Part shown: positions 20,603-27,961 of the stretch, piece by piece | How positions within the stretch are numbered: position 1 is the first letter of the stretch | Layout: the number at the start of each line of letters is the position of its first letter | NCBI RefSeq assembly: GCF_000177635.2 | Contig: NC_014836.1 | Span: forward strand, 167,501 to 231,500 | DNA: 64,000 nt | Reading direction: 5' to 3' | Source: Desulfurispirillum indicum S5 | GTDB taxonomy: Bacteria > Chrysiogenota > Chrysiogenetes > Chrysiogenales > Chrysiogenaceae | Translations under genes and position numbers: made by a program | The notes under the pieces: model-generated | The model's database searches: none | What the model was told of the DNA's origin: nothing | What the model saw: the letters and a program-made list of their open reading frames with translations, nothing else

Positions 20603-20636
20603 CCCGCACCAAGTTCTTCCGGGAGGAAAATACTCA

Positions 20637-22520
20637 ATGAAATCTACTGCTGAAGATCAGAAACTTTTCACCCAGTTGATGGAGAAAAGTAAGGAACGTG
20701 GCTTTATCACCTATGACGAGCTGAATGACTTCCTGCCCAAGGAGACCACGGATCCTGACTTGATCGACTCCATCATCGAAAATCTTGGACGCATCGGCAT
20801 ACGCCTGGTTGCGACCAATAAACTCAGCAAAGGCAAGGGCGAAAGTTCTGATGAATTTGCCGTTTTCCTCAAAGATCAGCCTGCCGTTCTGGATGGCGAT
20901 GACATAGAGAACGACGATGAAGAGGAGAGTGACGAGGAGGAGAGCGAGGAGAGTACCCTCGACCTGACTCCTGATACCTCGTTTCGCACCGATGATCCCG
21001 TGCGTCTGTATCTCAAGGAAATGGGCTCGGTTCCACTGCTCACCCGCGAGGGCGAAGTGGACATTGCCAAGAAAATCGAGGCGGGCTACGAGAAGATCAT
21101 CAGCTCGCTTATTGCCATTCCCAAGGCCGTAGAGTCGCTGCAGGAGCTGGCCGAAAAGCTTGAGGCTGGTGAAATCGGGCTCAAGGATATCATCATGCTC
21201 GATGATGAGGTGGGCAGCATGGGCATCATTGGCAACTCCACCTCCTATGACGAGGACGAGGAGTCCGCGGAAGAGGATGCGGAAGACCCTTCCAGTGCCC
21301 ATGTTCGCGCAGAGAATGCCACGGAGATGCGCGACTTTGTCATCAACTCCATCTGCGATATCGGGCAGCAGCTTCTGAGCCTGCGGGAGTACAAGGCCAA
21401 GGGTAAAAAGGATAAATATCGCAAGACGCTGGAGTCCATGACGGCGGTTATTTCGGAAATTCGCCTGACCAACGAAACCATCTCGCGCATCAGCAACATG
21501 ATCAAGGAACAGTACCTGGAAAGTCGGCGTGCCGGCTCGGAACTGGCCAAGATCATCAAGGTCACCGGACTCTCCCGGGACGACCTGCAGTATCTGTGCG
21601 GCGAGGAATCCAGCGCCGAGCACGTGGAGTCGGCTCGCGCCAAGACCTCTTTGCGGGCGGAAGACTTTGAGCGCCTCCTGGGCAAGGCGTCCGAGAGCAT
21701 TGCCTCGCTCCGGGAAATTGAGGAATCCACCGGTGTCGATGCCAATGAGCTGATGAGCATTGTGCAGCAGGTGCGCGAGGGTGAAGAGGAGTCCAAAGCC
21801 GCCAAGATGCAGCTGATCGAAGCCAACCTGCGCCTGGTGGTTTCCATTGCCAAGAAGTATACCAACCGTGGCCTGCAGTTCCTGGATCTGATCCAGGAGG
21901 GAAATATCGGCCTGATGAAGGCCGTGGACAAATTTGAGTACCGTCGTGGCTACAAGTTCTCCACCTACGCCACCTGGTGGATCCGCCAGGCCATTACCCG
22001 CGCCATTGCCGATCAGGCCCGTACCATCCGCATTCCGGTGCACATGATCGAGACCATCAACAAGCTGGTGCGCACCAGCCGGAACCTGGTGCAGGAGCTG
22101 GGTCGCGAACCGACCCCCGAGGAGATTGCCGACAAGATGGATCTGCCTGTGGAAAAAGTGCGCAAAGTGCTGAAAATTGCCAAAGAACCCATCAGTCTGG
22201 AAACGCCCATTGGTGAGGAGGAGGACTCCTCCCTGGGGGACTTTATCGAGGACAAGAACACCGTATCTCCGGCGGAAGCGGTCATCAGCTTCAACCTGAA
22301 GGAGCAGGTGCGCTCGGTACTCCACACCCTCAGCGCCCGTGAAGCCGAGGTGCTGAAGCTGCGCTTTGGCATTGACACCGACAGCGATCATACCCTGGAG
22401 GAAGTGGGCAAGAAATTCAATGTCACCCGTGAGCGTATCCGGCAGATTGAAGCCAAAGCCCTGCGCAAGCTGCGCCACCCGACCAGAAGCAAGATTCTGC
22501 GCACGTTCCTGGAACCCTGA
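20637..22520 (+). CDS. rpoD: RNA polymerase primary sigma factor (sigma-70)
   Basis: 627 residues from the ATG at 20637 (GGGAGG upstream). Region 1.1 at the N-terminus, then a strongly acidic linker (about 80-105, runs of Asp and Glu), region 1.2 ([19 protein letters not shown]), a long non-conserved region, region 2 with [15 protein letters not shown] for -10 recognition and melting, region 3, and region 4.2 helix-turn-helix [20 protein letters not shown]. Directs housekeeping transcription. Ends KILRTFLEP. Co-transcribed with dnaG. Confidence 0.98.
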
Positions 22521-22544
22521 CAGGCGGTATTTGAAGGGTATGAA

Positions 22545-22581
22545 GGCAGCAGGAGTCAGGCATGGCCCGACCCCTGCTGCC
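22545..22581 (+). terminator. Possible terminator after rpoD
   Basis: GGCAGCAGG (22545-22553) pairs with CCTGCTGCC (22573-22581). The 19-nt loop contains a further short GTC/GAC pairing. T-rich sequence (GTTTGGGTATTTTT) follows a few bases later. Confidence 0.45.
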
Positions 22582-22731
22582 CATGTCGTTTGGGTATTTT
22601 TCCGGGGAGTTTTTTCCGGCTGACGCTGTTCTTTGTGGTCTTTGTGTGAGAATATCTGCCCGGCAGACTGGTTGCCAAGCCGGAATCGTCACCAGCCTTT
22701 TCCAATATGATGAAGCGTAAAGAGGATCTCC

Positions 22732-23883
22732 ATGCAAAAATCGTATCTCCTGGCCCCTGGCCCCACACCCGTTCCCGAGCAGGTTGCCCTGCGCATGGCC
22801 GCTCCGGCGGTTCACCATCGCACTCCGCAGTTTTCCCGTCTCTTTGCTGAAGTGGAAGAAGGTCTGAAGTACCTGCTGCAGACCCGTAACGATGTACTCA
22901 TGCTTGCCAGCAGTGGTTCCGGTGCCATGGAAGCTGCTGTTGTCAATATCATGCATTCTGCGGAAAAGGCGATCGTGGTCAACGCCGGGAAATTTGGTGA
23001 GCGCTGGGGGAAAATCTGCCAGGCCTATGGCGTGGAGGTCATCTGGCTCAACTCGCCCTGGGGAACGCCGGTCAACCCCGATGAAGTTGCCCAGGCGCTG
23101 CGGGAAAACCAGAACGTGGGAGCCGTCTTCGTGCAGGGGTGCGACACCTCGGCGACGGTTCAGCATCCCGTTGCCGCCCTTGGGGCCATCGTGAAGGAAT
23201 ACCCCCGGACCCTGCTGGTGGTGGATGGCATCACGGCGGTGGGTGCCGCTGATCTGGCCATGGATCGTGATCATATTGACGTGCTGGTTGTCGGCTCTCA
23301 GAAAGCGTTGATGCTTCCTCCGGGCCTGGCTTGTGTGGGCGTGAGCGAAAAGGCCTGGCAGAAAATGGATACTACCGATCTGCCCAGATTTTATTTTGAT
23401 ATGCGCAAGGAGCGCAAATCCCTGGCCAAGCACACCACGGCCTATACGCCGGCCACGTCTCTGATTACCGGGCTCCATGAGGTGCTTACGATGATCCGCT
23501 CCGAAGGCCTGGAGAACCTCTTCCGGCGCATTGACTGCCTGGCCCGCGCCACCCGCGCTGGTTTGCAGGCTCTGGGACTGGAGCTGCTGGCTCCCGGTGC
23601 ACCGGCAGCCTCCTGTACCGGTGCCTATCTGCCGGCTGCCATCGACGGCAAGGCCTTTGTGCGCTTTGCCCGCGATACCATGGGCGTGACCTTTGCCGGT
23701 GGCCAGGATGACCTGGAAGGAAAAATTGTTCGTATCAACCACATGGGGTATGTGGATACGTTTGATGTGATTATCAGCATCAGCGCCATGGAAATGGCCC
23801 TGAAGGCCTTTGGACACGCCTTTACACCCGGCAGTGGCGTGGGCGCTGCCCAGGAAATTCTCGCGGAAAGGTATTCCCTATGA
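22732..23883 (+). CDS. Class V PLP-dependent aminotransferase (alanine/serine-glyoxylate or phosphoserine type)
   Basis: 383 residues. Begins SYLLAPGPTPVPEQV, as in alanine-glyoxylate and SerC-like soluble hydrogenase-subunit homologues. The PLP Lys is in VVGSQKALMLPPG, and the motif VDGITAVGAADLAMD holds the pyridine-contacting Asp region. It overlaps serA by ATGA, so it probably supplies the transamination step of the serine pathway (3-phosphohydroxypyruvate to phosphoserine) in place of a canonical serC. That assignment rests on context. GAGG ribosome site before the ATG. Confidence 0.85.
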   Translation: MQKSYLLAPGPTPVPEQVALRMAAPAVHHRTPQFSRLFAEVEEGLKYLLQTRNDVLMLASSGSGAMEAAVVNIMHSAEKAIVVNAGKFGERWGKICQAYGVEVIWLNSPWGTPVNPDEVAQALRENQNVGAVFVQGCDTSATVQHPVAALGAIVKEYPRTLLVVDGITAVGAADLAMDRDHIDVLVVGSQKALMLPPGLACVGVSEKAWQKMDTTDLPRFYFDMRKERKSLAKHTTAYTPATSLITGLHEVLTMIRSEGLENLFRRIDCLARATRAGLQALGLELLAPGAPAASCTGAYLPAAIDGKAFVRFARDTMGVTFAGGQDDLEGKIVRINHMGYVDTFDVIISISAMEMALKAFGHAFTPGSGVGAAQEILAERYSL

Positions 23884-25442
23884 AAATAGTTGTATGCGAC
23901 CGGCTGGAAGCCAAGGCGACCCGCAAACTGCAGGAAAAGTATGACCAGGTGGTGCTGCTGGAGAGTCCCGATCGCCAGACCATCATTGAGCACAGCGCCG
24001 ACGCCGATGCCATCATAGTCAGAAGCCATACGGTCATTGACCGCACGATTATTGAAAACAGTCCGCGCCTGCGGGTTCTCGGAAGGGCCGGCTCAGGCTC
24101 CTATAATATCGACGTGGAAGCTGCCAGCAAAAGAGGCATTGTGGTACTGCACACGCCCTTTATCTCCAGCACATCCACCGCTGAGCTGGCTATCGCCCTG
24201 CTGATCGGCGCGGCCCGCAAGCTCAAGGAAGCCACTGCCGATATGGCCGGTGGCAAGTGGGATCGCGGTGCCCTCAACGGGTTGGAACTTTCCGGCCAGA
24301 CGGTGGGTATCATCGGCTACGGAAATATCGGTCGCAAGGTGGCTGCCATCACCAAGGCCATCGGTATGGAAGTCCTGGCGTACGACCCCTATGTGCGCTA
24401 TCAGCAGACCGAATCGCCTGTTGCTGATCTGGTAAGCCTGGATGAATTGCTGACCCGCAGCACTGCTGTGATCGTCTGCTGCCCGCGGACTCCGGAAACC
24501 GCAGGCATGTTCAATGCGGCCCTGTTTGCCCGTATGCGTGCGGGTTCTTTGCTGGTCAATGTGGGCCACGGGCAGGTGGTGGTGGAAAAGGACCTGATTG
24601 CGGCCCTGGACAGCGGTCATCTTTTCGGTGCAGGCCTTGACGTGTTCGAGGAAGAGCCGACCCGTCGCGAGACGGCGGTGGTTCAGCATCCCAGGGTGTA
24701 CACCACACCCCATATAGGTGCTGCCACCATGAAAGCCCAGGAAGGCGTCTGCACTGATATCGTCGATAAGGTTATCGGTTTCCTGGACAACGGATACATC
24801 TCCGGCTCAATCAATCTGCCCGTTGTCGACGAAAATACCGAAGTGAACATCCAGGGGTATATTGAGCTGGCGGGAAAGCTGGCATCCATGGTTTCGCAGC
24901 TTGACCCCGCAACCACCAGGCTTTGCCTGCAGGTCAATGGCAAGCTGGCCTATAGTGATACCGGTGCCCTGGAAAACCGCGTGGCCAGAGAGTTTCTGTT
25001 GGCCCGGCGCCAGGAGGCCAGTGATATCAATGCCCGCTTCCTGCTGGATGACCAGGGTATCAGCATCAGCCTTGGCAAGGCCGATCAGGGCTCAGCTTTC
25101 GTCAATGAGGTTGAGGTGGCAACGGACAACTACTCCCTCAAGGGAACCCTGCTGGCCGACAAGTTCCCGCGCATCGTCGAGGTGAATGAGTACAAGATCG
25201 AAGCCGTGCCCCAGGGCACCATGCTCTTTTTCCGCAACTACGACCGTCCCGGTGTGATCGGCAGCCTCGGCCGCCTGCTGGGAGAGAAGAATATCAACGT
25301 TGCCAATATGCGCCTGGGATTCCGGGGTGACGACGAAGCCATTGCCATGGTCAATATTGACACCGCTGTGGACGCGGCAACCCTGCAGGAAATCACCCGT
25401 CTTGACAATATCATCGACTGCTTTCAACTGGAGTTTACATGA
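23880..25442 (+). CDS. serA: D-3-phosphoglycerate dehydrogenase-like protein (SerA) with altered active-site loops
   Basis: 520 residues, the long SerA form. Catalytic and Rossmann domains (about 1-310; NAD motif GIIGYGNIGRKVA), an allosteric substrate-binding domain (about 320-445) and a C-terminal ACT domain (GTMLFFRNYDRPGVIGSLG ... NVANMRLGF). Usual role is oxidation of 3-phosphoglycerate, the first step of serine synthesis. Deviations: where the family has an N-x-x-R-G catalytic Arg loop this protein reads VNVGHGQVV, i.e. His for Arg (codon CAC). GRAGSGSYNID and HTPFISSTSTAE replace the normal GRAGVGxDN and NTPxxNxxxxAE loops. The Glu of FEEEP and the His of TPHIGAAT are kept. Overlaps the aminotransferase and hisZ by 4 nt each. 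Confidence 0.85.
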   Translation: MKIVVCDRLEAKATRKLQEKYDQVVLLESPDRQTIIEHSADADAIIVRSHTVIDRTIIENSPRLRVLGRAGSGSYNIDVEAASKRGIVVLHTPFISSTSTAELAIALLIGAARKLKEATADMAGGKWDRGALNGLELSGQTVGIIGYGNIGRKVAAITKAIGMEVLAYDPYVRYQQTESPVADLVSLDELLTRSTAVIVCCPRTPETAGMFNAALFARMRAGSLLVNVGHGQVVVEKDLIAALDSGHLFGAGLDVFEEEPTRRETAVVQHPRVYTTPHIGAATMKAQEGVCTDIVDKVIGFLDNGYISGSINLPVVDENTEVNIQGYIELAGKLASMVSQLDPATTRLCLQVNGKLAYSDTGALENRVAREFLLARRQEASDINARFLLDDQGISISLGKADQGSAFVNEVEVATDNYSLKGTLLADKFPRIVEVNEYKIEAVPQGTMLFFRNYDRPGVIGSLGRLLGEKNINVANMRLGFRGDDEAIAMVNIDTAVDAATLQEITRLDNIIDCFQLEFT

Positions 25443-26599
25443 ATACACCCGGCACCATGGAACCGAAGGATATCCCCAAAGGCTTTCGCGCCTCCATAGG
25501 CCCGCAGGCACGGACCATCTTCTCCCTGGAGAAGGACATGGTGGATATCTTCCAGTCCTGGGGCTATCAGCCGATTCTGACCCCCAGCCTGGAGTACGAG
25601 GACGTTATCGCCCGCGCCCTGGATGAAAACACCCTGCCCAGCACCTATCGCATCATCGACAGCATTACCGGGCGCGTCCTGCTGCTGCGCCCCGACTTTA
25701 CCCCCTCCATAGCGCGGGCCTACTCCACGGCCACCACCAAGCTTGGCGACTGCGTGCGCCTGTGCTACAGCGGCTCGGTATTTCGCTCCATCAACAAGCA
25801 CGAGGGCAACCAGGCCCAGGTGGTTCAGGCGGGGGGGGAATTCCTGGGCTGTTCATCCCTTGAAGCGGATTTTGAAGCCATTGCGCTGTGCGTGCACGCC
25901 ATTGGTCAGGTCAGCAGCCATGGCCTGAATCTGGTGCTCACCCACAGCCGTTTTATCGGTGGCATCCTTGCGGCGCTGGAGGTGGAGCCTGCCATGGAGA
26001 AGGCCATTGTCAGCGCCCTGCACAAAAAGGATCTCTCCGCGCTGAAGGAGCTGTTGGAACAGTCCGGAACCACCTACCACAACCGCGAAGTGCTGCTGAA
26101 GCTGCCCGGCCTGATTGGTGATACCAGCCTGATCGACCGCGCCCGCAGCCTTGTCTGTAACGAGACTTCCCACCGGGCTCTCGATGAGCTGGGGGCCCTG
26201 CTGCAGAAACTGGAGCATATTGGCTGTCGCATCACTCTGGATCTTTCCGAGCTCTCCTACCTGAACTACTACACCGGGTGCAGCTTTGAACTCTATGACG
26301 AAGAGTGCGGCATGAAGGTGGCTGGCGGCGGACGTTACGACAACCTGGTTGGCAAGTATACCCATCCCACACCTGCCGTGGGATTCGCCGTCAACATCAA
26401 TCACCTGTGCGAAGCGGGTCTGCGAAATCAGCATGAAATCCTTGTGGATTATGTGGTATACAGTGAGAGCGATACCCTGGAACAGGCCCAGCAGGAAGTG
26501 GAACGTCTGCGCCGCCAGGGACACAGTGCCTTCTGGATAACGGCCTCCAGCGCCGCTCAACACCAGCAGCGTGCCAGAAACATCATCAAGTTACCGTAA
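25439..26599 (+). CDS. hisZ: ATP phosphoribosyltransferase regulatory subunit
   Basis: 386 residues, a histidyl-tRNA synthetase paralogue without the anticodon domain. Class II core motifs are visible: RPDFTPSIARAYST (motif 2-like), SELSYLNYYTGCSFELY and GGGRYDNLVGKY. HisZ partners with a short-form HisG in the first step of histidine synthesis; hisG itself is outside the window. The C-terminus is short and ends with SAAQHQQRARNIIKLP. Start ATG overlaps the serA stop; purA follows after 66 nt. Confidence 0.9.
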   Translation: MNTPGTMEPKDIPKGFRASIGPQARTIFSLEKDMVDIFQSWGYQPILTPSLEYEDVIARALDENTLPSTYRIIDSITGRVLLLRPDFTPSIARAYSTATTKLGDCVRLCYSGSVFRSINKHEGNQAQVVQAGGEFLGCSSLEADFEAIALCVHAIGQVSSHGLNLVLTHSRFIGGILAALEVEPAMEKAIVSALHKKDLSALKELLEQSGTTYHNREVLLKLPGLIGDTSLIDRARSLVCNETSHRALDELGALLQKLEHIGCRITLDLSELSYLNYYTGCSFELYDEECGMKVAGGGRYDNLVGKYTHPTPAVGFAVNINHLCEAGLRNQHEILVDYVVYSESDTLEQAQQEVERLRRQGHSAFWITASSAAQHQQRARNIIKLP

Positions 26600-26665
26600 C
26601 CGATAGTTGAAATACTTGCCGCAGCCTGACGAGCATCGACCAGGCTGCCAGAAAGAGGACTTTTC

Positions 26666-27961
26666 ATGGCAAATCTCGTTATTTTAGGCGCCCAGTGGGG
26701 CGATGAGGGAAAAGGGAAAATAGTCGACCTGCTTTCGGAGAAGGCTGATGTGGTCGTTCGTTACCAGGGTGGACACAATGCCGGGCATACCGTCAAGGTC
26801 GGTGACGATGAAACTATCCTGCACCTGATTCCCAGTGGCATCCTGCACGAAGGAAAGATGTGCGTGATCGGCCAGGGTGTAGTGGTTGATCCCAAGGCCC
26901 TGCTGGATGAAATTGAAAAGCTTGAGAAAAAAGGTATCAAAGTGGCCGGTCGCCTGCTCATCTCCGAGCGCGCCAACCTGATCATGCCCTACCATCGTGT
27001 CATCGACAAATCCAACGAGAGTCACCGCGGCGAAAAGAAGATCGGCACCACCGGGCGCGGTATCGGCCCCGCCTATTCCGACAAGATGGCCCGCATCGGC
27101 ATCCGCTTTGTGGATCTTCTGGAAACAGAGCTCTTTGCCGAGCGCCTGGCTGACAACCTGCAGAACTACAACTATATTCTCGAAAAACTCTACCACCACC
27201 CCGACCTCAAATTTGCCCAGGTTTTCGCTGAGTACGAAGAGTATGGTCAACGCCTGAAGCCCTATATCGCCGATACCTCCCTCTACCTCGCCAACGCCAT
27301 GGCCCGGGGGGAGAAAATTCTCTTCGAAGGGGCCCAGGGCACGCTGCTGGATGTGGACAGCGGCACCTATCCCTATGTCACCTCATCTTCCTGCTGCAGT
27401 GGTGGCAGCCTGACGGGAACTGGTGTGGGCCCCCAGGCCATCAACCATGTGGTGGGCGTCATGAAAGCCTATACCACCCGTGTGGGCGAAGGGCCGTTCC
27501 CCACGGAGCTGCTGGATGCCGATGGCGAAAAACTGCGTGAAATCGGACATGAATATGGCGCCACTACCGGACGGCCCCGTCGCTGCGGCTGGTTTGACTC
27601 GGTTGTTGGCCGCTATGCGGTGCGCACCAATGGCCTGACCGGCCTGGCTGTCACCAAGCTTGATGTGCTCGATGCCTTTGATACCATCAAGATCTGCACC
27701 GGCTACAAGATTGATGGCGAAGTGGTTCAGGAATTCCCCGCCAGCCTCAGCAAACTGCGCAGAATCGAGCCGGTTTTCGAAGAGATGCCTGGCTGGAAGA
27801 CATCCACCGTTGGCGCCAAAGGGGAACAGGATCTGCCACCGAATGCCGTGGCGTACCTGCGCCGCATTGAGGAGCTGGTCGGCTGCAAGGCTGTTCTCGT
27901 CTCCACTGGCCCGAAGCGTGATCAGACGTACTTTACGCCCGATTTTGACACCCTGCTGTAA
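26666..27961 (+). CDS. purA: Adenylosuccinate synthetase
   Basis: 431 residues, family-typical. Begins MANLVILGAQWGDEGKGK (GTP P-loop with catalytic Asp) and has the conserved GGHNAGHTV, IGTTGRGIGPAYSDK, FEGAQGTLLD and TTGRPRRCGWFD blocks. Converts IMP and aspartate to adenylosuccinate using GTP. Likely the last gene of the aminotransferase-serA-hisZ-purA transcription unit; a small inverted repeat (26621-26648) lies in the gap before it. A bidirectional terminator follows. Confidence 0.97.
   Translation: MANLVILGAQWGDEGKGKIVDLLSEKADVVVRYQGGHNAGHTVKVGDDETILHLIPSGILHEGKMCVIGQGVVVDPKALLDEIEKLEKKGIKVAGRLLISERANLIMPYHRVIDKSNESHRGEKKIGTTGRGIGPAYSDKMARIGIRFVDLLETELFAERLADNLQNYNYILEKLYHHPDLKFAQVFAEYEEYGQRLKPYIADTSLYLANAMARGEKILFEGAQGTLLDVDSGTYPYVTSSSCCSGGSLTGTGVGPQAINHVVGVMKAYTTRVGEGPFPTELLDADGEKLREIGHEYGATTGRPRRCGWFDSVVGRYAVRTNGLTGLAVTKLDVLDAFDTIKICTGYKIDGEVVQEFPASLSKLRRIEPVFEEMPGWKTSTVGAKGEQDLPPNAVAYLRRIEELVGCKAVLVSTGPKRDQTYFTPDFDTLL

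Follow-up and report, generated by a model that had tools for sequence, protein, structure and literature searches.

Can a protein that has the whole architecture of phosphoglycerate dehydrogenase (PGDH), but not its catalytic arginine, take part in making serine, or does it serve a different purpose? The question is raised by an open reading frame (ORF) at positions 23880–25442 (plus strand) of a 64,000-nucleotide stretch of DNA from Desulfurispirillum indicum S5. This stretch, referred to here as the window, lies on a single contig of 2,928,377 bases; the genome is labeled G000, and the 520-residue product of the ORF is called SerX. The loss of the arginine together with the retention of the ACT sensor domain suggests that, instead of making serine itself, SerX regulates its synthesis or catalyzes some other reaction.

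SerX Is, by Sequence, a Homolog of Type I PGDH

The translation, Pfam searches, alignments, and the presence of orthologs in two further genomes (G001 and G002) identify SerX as a paralog of type I PGDH without the catalytic Arg. Two 2-hydroxyacid dehydrogenase domains are recognized by Pfam, along with the PGDH_inter (ASB) domain at residues 324–436 (positions 24849–25187, plus strand; PF19304, E = 8.2e-11) and an ACT domain at residues 447–509 (25218–25406, plus strand; PF01842, E = 1.7e-8). The same set of domains is found in all three members of the family. With the type I model TIGR01327, SerX scores 453.9 bits against a curated cut-off of 454, a borderline value just under the threshold. 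The PGDH of M. tuberculosis is the top match of SerX in both phmmer and Foldseek, the latter with a query model of moderate quality (pLDDT 74.8). This AlphaFold2 model, built with nine distant relatives, has a pTM of 0.51 and is too weak for active-site geometry; Foldseek returned PGDHs with it, and the superposition was poor. Judged by its sequence, SerX is a full-length homolog of type I PGDH.

The Catalytic Arginine Is Lost and Much of the Pocket Is Kept

The residues of SerX were compared with those of 61 long SerAs. Three of these are the family's own canonical enzymes, 27 belong to genomes of the phylum outside the family, 26 to more distant ones, and five to Corynebacterium. Two loci, L070 and L071, were left out of this set, as their residues mark them as partial copies of SerX. 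An earlier note on this DNA had described a His in place of the catalytic Arg, changes in two substrate loops, and retention of the remaining catalytic residues and of the ASB and ACT domains, and the alignments bear out each of these points. The motif VNVGHGQVV corresponds to residues 226–234, and in pairwise alignments with the PGDHs of M. tuberculosis, P. horikoshii, maize, and human, His230 (codon cac, 24567–24569, plus strand) falls on the Arg of the N-x-x-R-G loop, which is Arg240 in E. coli and Arg235 in the human enzyme. The three SerX orthologs have His, His, and Asn at this position, versus Arg in 61/61 long SerAs. Since one ortholog carries Asn, the change is best described as a loss of Arg and not as Arg to His, and the variability of the position makes a dedicated new His-based chemistry unlikely.

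Three further substitutions accompany this loss. In the loop GRAGSGSYNID (residues 68–78; 24081–24113, plus strand), Gly73 and Asn76 are kept and Asp75 is replaced by Tyr in all three SerX proteins. The second loop, HTPFISSTSTAE (residues 91–102; 24150–24185, plus strand), has His for Asn91 and Ser for Asn96, again in 3/3. Asp75, Asn91, and Asn96 are each constant in 61/61 SerAs. The position of Asn96 is one that we take to be a substrate residue of formate dehydrogenase.

The rest of the catalytic apparatus is present. Glu259 (24654–24656) and His278 (24711–24713), both on the plus strand, are conserved in 3/3 SerX proteins and in 61/61 SerAs, as is the phosphate-binding pair Arg48-Ser49 (24021–24026, plus strand; human R53/S54). 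The NAD motif GxGxxG (G146, G148, and G151) with D169 is intact in all three orthologs, and so are Arg129 and Gln287, which complete the phosphate side. Phosphate-binding roles in PGDH are assigned to the Arg-Ser motif, to the Gln, and to an Arg or Lys of the other subunit in the available passages of two articles (PMC6303947; PMC6300728).

In the part of PMC5732821 that concerns human PHGDH, the contacts of L-tartrate are given as R235, H282, A285, R53, S54, R74, T77, and Q291. By alignment, the equivalents in SerX are, in the same order, H230, H278, A281, R48, S49, R69, S72, and Q287. Six of the eight contacts are thus identical in SerX, T77 is Ser, Ser, and Val in the three orthologs, and R235 alone is lost. 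According to the available passages of a review, no active-site residue of the D-2-hydroxyacid dehydrogenase (2HADH) superfamily is more conserved than the missing one, which binds both the carbonyl and the carboxylate of the substrate (PMC6303947). As far as the alignment tells, the substrate pocket of SerX is largely intact apart from the Arg that, by the same account, polarizes and orients the substrate.

Over the whole alignment, 57 columns show one residue in 97% or more of the 61 SerAs, and 43 of them are kept in all three SerX proteins. When constant columns are defined on 58 SerAs, SerX keeps 45/62 and the resident canonical trio 57/62. Residues specific to the SerX pocket (S74, Y75, H91, I95–T98, and K285) are invariant among the three orthologs.

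SerX Is Restricted to One Lineage

The family consists of three of the 50 genomes of the phylum that were examined (G000, G001, and G002), each belonging to another genus; the NCBI taxonomy lists three named genera in the Chrysiogenaceae. The ortholog in G002 is 68% identical to SerX and has the His, that in G001 is 57% identical and has the Asn, and no other genome among the 50 contains one. The next-best match within the phylum is an Arg-bearing SerA with 37% identity. A search of 384 genomes with a SerX profile (the 50 of the phylum plus others of the same domain) gave about 1000 bits for the three family members and 426 for the next best, and no other long SerA without the Arg was seen among 30 loci taken from this search.

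In quick trees, where long branches are in play, SerX branches apart from the clade formed by the SerAs of the phylum. Neither a grouping with the resident copies (p = 0.191) nor one with all SerAs of the phylum (p = 0.598) is rejected for SerX by the AU test. As to a plasmid or horizontal source, a plasmid collection holds no DNA match to SerX, and its protein matches are all below 60% identity; the 15 matches listed, which include proteins annotated as serA, lie at 31%–34%. A literature search, with subscription journals mostly outside its reach, turned up no publication about a PGDH without the Arg or about any PGDH of Chrysiogenes. The available parts of PMC10102598, PMC5764234, and PMC7311316 contain nothing on the SerX gene, and those of the latter two give background on missing steps of the serine pathway. 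SerX is a lineage-restricted variant of the known PGDH family.

SerX Lies between a Putative Phosphoserine Aminotransferase and hisZ

Immediately upstream of SerX is a gene for a class V aminotransferase of 383 residues (22732–23883, plus strand), and downstream are hisZ (25439–26599, plus strand; TIGR00443, above cut-off) and purA (26666–27961, plus strand), the latter continuing a conserved cluster. The overlap with the aminotransferase that had been reported earlier is real and is matched on the other side: the stop codon of the aminotransferase overlaps the start of SerX, and the stop of SerX overlaps the start of hisZ, each in a four-base ATGA that recurs in all three genera. The order dnaG-rpoD-aminotransferase-SerX-hisZ-purA is common to the three genomes of the family. 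Homologs of the aminotransferase with at least 43% identity occur in 44/50 genomes of the phylum (its own included, and one split over two contigs), and in 27/27 loci taken from outside the family the aminotransferase gene is followed by hisZ on the same strand, in 25 of the 27 then by purA. As SerX lies between the aminotransferase and hisZ solely in the family, it was inserted into an existing pair or, less simply, lost elsewhere. The conservation of the order aminotransferase-hisZ-purA (22732–27961) across the phylum is itself curious, as it pairs serine, histidine, and purine genes without an obvious reason.

The identity of the aminotransferase was approached by homology and context. It scores 25.3 bits with the SerC model TIGR01364, below the cut-off of 443.6, and its closest NCBIfam model is BhcA (284 bits; cut-off 650). 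The five PF00266 matches of G000 that are stronger are of the cysteine-desulfurase type (five further ones are weaker), so that the aminotransferase, as the sole non-desulfurase type among the six strongest, is the best candidate for SerC. It is likely the phosphoserine aminotransferase of the phylum. Two long ORFs on the minus strand, 22423–23817 (464 residues) and 20634–22478 (614 residues), lie opposite the aminotransferase and rpoD genes and are probably shadow frames.

A Canonical SerA Is Encoded Elsewhere

The search for a second, canonical serA and for serC and serB, proposed in the earlier note, gave a clear answer for the first of these. Each of the three genomes carries an Arg-bearing SerA as a separate gene; in G000 it is located at G000:C1:387121-388716, and its product scores 624.8 bits with TIGR01327 (cut-off 454). 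The SerX gene is not adjacent to it; in locus L009 the canonical serA is flanked by what we take to be rpoA-like and ribF-like ORFs. Because this enzyme is encoded elsewhere in all three genomes, serine synthesis does not need SerX. For serC there is the candidate described above. No SerB over the cut-off was found in the whole genomes of G000, G001, and G002, where the best score was 36.7 bits against 144.15.

An observation on the canonical SerA itself (L009:9101-10735, and likewise in G001 and G002) is that the Pro of the DRPG motif in its ACT domain is replaced by Asn, which may alter feedback by serine.

The Catalytic and ASB Domains of SerX Are Less Conserved

The two sets of three sequences, SerX and canonical SerA from the same genomes, were compared domain by domain. 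In the catalytic part, 154/318 columns are invariant within the SerX trio versus 222/318 within the SerA trio, and in the ASB domain 52/118 versus 80/118. In the ACT domain the order is reversed, with 46/79 for SerX and 39/79 for SerA. The difference between ACT and catalytic part was reached in 0/5000 column permutations, a figure that refers to three sequences against three and treats columns as independent. For SerX, then, the relaxation affects the catalytic and ASB domains but spares ACT. The ratio of mismatches at second to third codon positions is 0.33–0.39 for SerX, 0.19–0.25 for SerA, 0.22–0.29 for the aminotransferase, and 0.37–0.45 for hisZ; SerX, with values near those of hisZ, is thus constrained by purifying selection.

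According to the available passages of PMC6300728, the serine site of the ACT domain is formed by H344, N346, and N364 in E. coli PGDH and by Y461, D463, and N481 in M. tuberculosis PGDH, and Pro348 acts as a lid over bound serine in E. coli. SerX has N453, D455 (Asp, Asp, and Asn in the three orthologs), and N473 at the ligand positions and keeps the lid, Pro457. N453 is unlike the His of E. coli or the Tyr of M. tuberculosis, but it is the usual residue, present in 52/58 of the SerAs compared. At the position of Pro457, all three resident SerAs have Asn, and the other ungapped SerAs have Pro in 57/57. The resident canonical enzyme keeps the equivalents of N453, D455, and N473. In 17 ACT columns the residue is conserved in 80% or more of the 58 other SerAs, and the canonical enzyme retains 12 of these, the same number as SerX. 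With the ACT domain of the canonical enzyme equally intact and its ligand residues kept, a transfer of serine sensing to SerX does not have to be assumed.

Possible Roles of SerX

The explanation that is tentatively favored is that SerX is a catalytically impaired PGDH paralog, predicted to bind ligands and to regulate the canonical SerA or the pathway. This reading, absent from the earlier note, is favored by the domain-wise conservation, and it is the best fit to a protein with intact ligand residues, in which the ACT domain is conserved and the catalytic domain relaxed, and which coexists with a separate SerA that looks functional. SerX would have given up efficient oxidation of 3-phosphoglycerate and would still bind NAD(H) and a phosphorylated three-carbon acid, as well as serine through ACT. 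It may join the canonical SerA, the product of another locus, in mixed oligomers, act together with the translationally coupled aminotransferase, or do both; its net role would be that of a regulatory partner of serine synthesis. Several observations weigh against this. A pure regulator would have no need of Glu259, His278, and the NAD motif, which are kept in 3/3, and the invariance of the SerX-specific pocket residues suggests a pocket that is ligand-specific or catalytic. The ASB domain is relaxed as well as the catalytic domain, the SerX gene is distant from the canonical serA, and only three sequences underlie the comparison. A more specific form of the proposal, in which SerX is a serine-sensing pseudo-PGDH subunit that arose through loss of the catalytic Arg, sits in mixed SerA oligomers, and holds the feedback control, the lid of the catalytic SerA having changed from Pro to Asn, is quite doubtful.

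In the main rival explanation, SerX catalyzes the NAD-dependent oxidation or reduction of another substrate that carries phosphate, in a rebuilt pocket with no further need of the Arg, and forms a pair with the aminotransferase. This is possible, though somewhat unlikely. The retained Glu, His, and NAD motif, the phosphate-side residues R48, S49, R129, and Q287, the pocket residues shared by three genera, and the ATGA coupling to the aminotransferase in 3/3 are all consistent with it. The residue at the Arg position is His, His, or Asn, however, so that none has taken over the role of the Arg, which is the most conserved in the active site of 2HADHs and holds both carbonyl and carboxylate, as stated in parts of PMC6303947. 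The aminotransferase, present in 44/50 genomes versus 3/50 for SerX, must also be independent of a SerX product. The suggestion made earlier, of a serine-pathway variant or an enzyme for another 2-hydroxyacid, is thus supported in part: another substrate is possible, yet it is not favored, as Arg and Asn96 are lost together while Arg-Ser, Arg129, and Gln287 stay, and as the Arg position varies.

It is improbable that SerX is a working, if slow, PGDH, kept as a serine-regulated isozyme and co-expressed with the aminotransferase. A TIGR01327 score within 0.1 bit of the cut-off, the identity of 6/8 human ligand contacts with a Ser, Ser, or Val at T77, and the shared operon would agree with such an isozyme, but the joint loss of R230, N96, D75, and N91, all constant in 61/61 SerAs, and the presence of a canonical SerA in the same three genomes argue against it. 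Moreover, Arg235 of D-lactate dehydrogenase, the equivalent of the PGDH Arg, reportedly has an essential role in substrate binding, to go by the title of a study. That SerX is instead a decaying duplicate without function is very improbable. Relaxed conservation of the catalytic and ASB domains and the loss of four constant residues would be expected of decay, but the frame is open, the ATGA overlaps and the gene order are kept in three genera, the ACT domain is no less conserved than that of the working copy, and second codon positions are constrained. Errors of sequencing or assembly in an ordinary SerA, or a frameshift, were also considered as the origin of His230; nothing was found in their favor, and they were rejected as having a negligible chance: the independent genome G002 has the same His, which makes restoration of the Arg by resequencing unlikely, and the same replacements of D75, N91, and N96, the ortholog in G001 has Asn, and the canonical SerA is a separate gene.

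Genome annotation is at risk, as SerX may be called serA and taken for the pathway enzyme on account of its place beside the aminotransferase, while the canonical enzyme lies elsewhere. A paralog under selection that lacks the Arg, its substrate and serine sites otherwise intact, would also offer a simple test of whether serine feedback can sit on a catalytically impaired subunit.

Comparison with Known Systems

SerX resembles type I PGDH (SerA, TIGR01327; M. tuberculosis, 1ygy) in the domain order substrate-NAD-ASB-ACT, in aligning over the full length, and in its phosphate, Glu, His, NAD, and ACT serine-site residues. It differs in the absence of the catalytic Arg and the replacement of D75, N91, and N96, in an identity of only ∼30%–37% to the full-length SerAs compared, and in coexisting with a canonical copy. 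The aminotransferase, its operon partner, has homologs of 43%–75% identity in the phylum, yet belongs to a separate family, and its SerC role is putative. Replacement of a catalytic-triad residue has precedents in the available passages of the 2HADH review, in group X4 (Trp for His) and SERA type IIIK (Lys for His) (PMC6303947). These groups lose both His and Glu, whereas SerX retains both and loses the Arg; no Arg-less 2HADH subfamily is named in sections 9 and 23 and the available passages of the same review.

A parallel for the proposed role, in its logic only, is HisZ, which belongs to ATP phosphoribosyltransferase as a regulatory paralog of histidyl-tRNA synthetase and resembles an enzyme but lacks the activity of its parent. 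The available part of PMC9734150 describes HisZ as regulatory; it enhances HisGS, and inhibition by histidine is mediated by it. It differs from SerX in fold and in pathway, and the regulatory role of SerX is a proposal. The step that HisZ regulates is the first of an amino-acid pathway, as would be the case for SerX, and hisZ follows SerX in the operon. In the more specific form of the proposal, which is quite doubtful, SerX would be a dedicated serine-sensing subunit, the counterpart of HisZ in the serine pathway, encoded directly upstream of hisZ.
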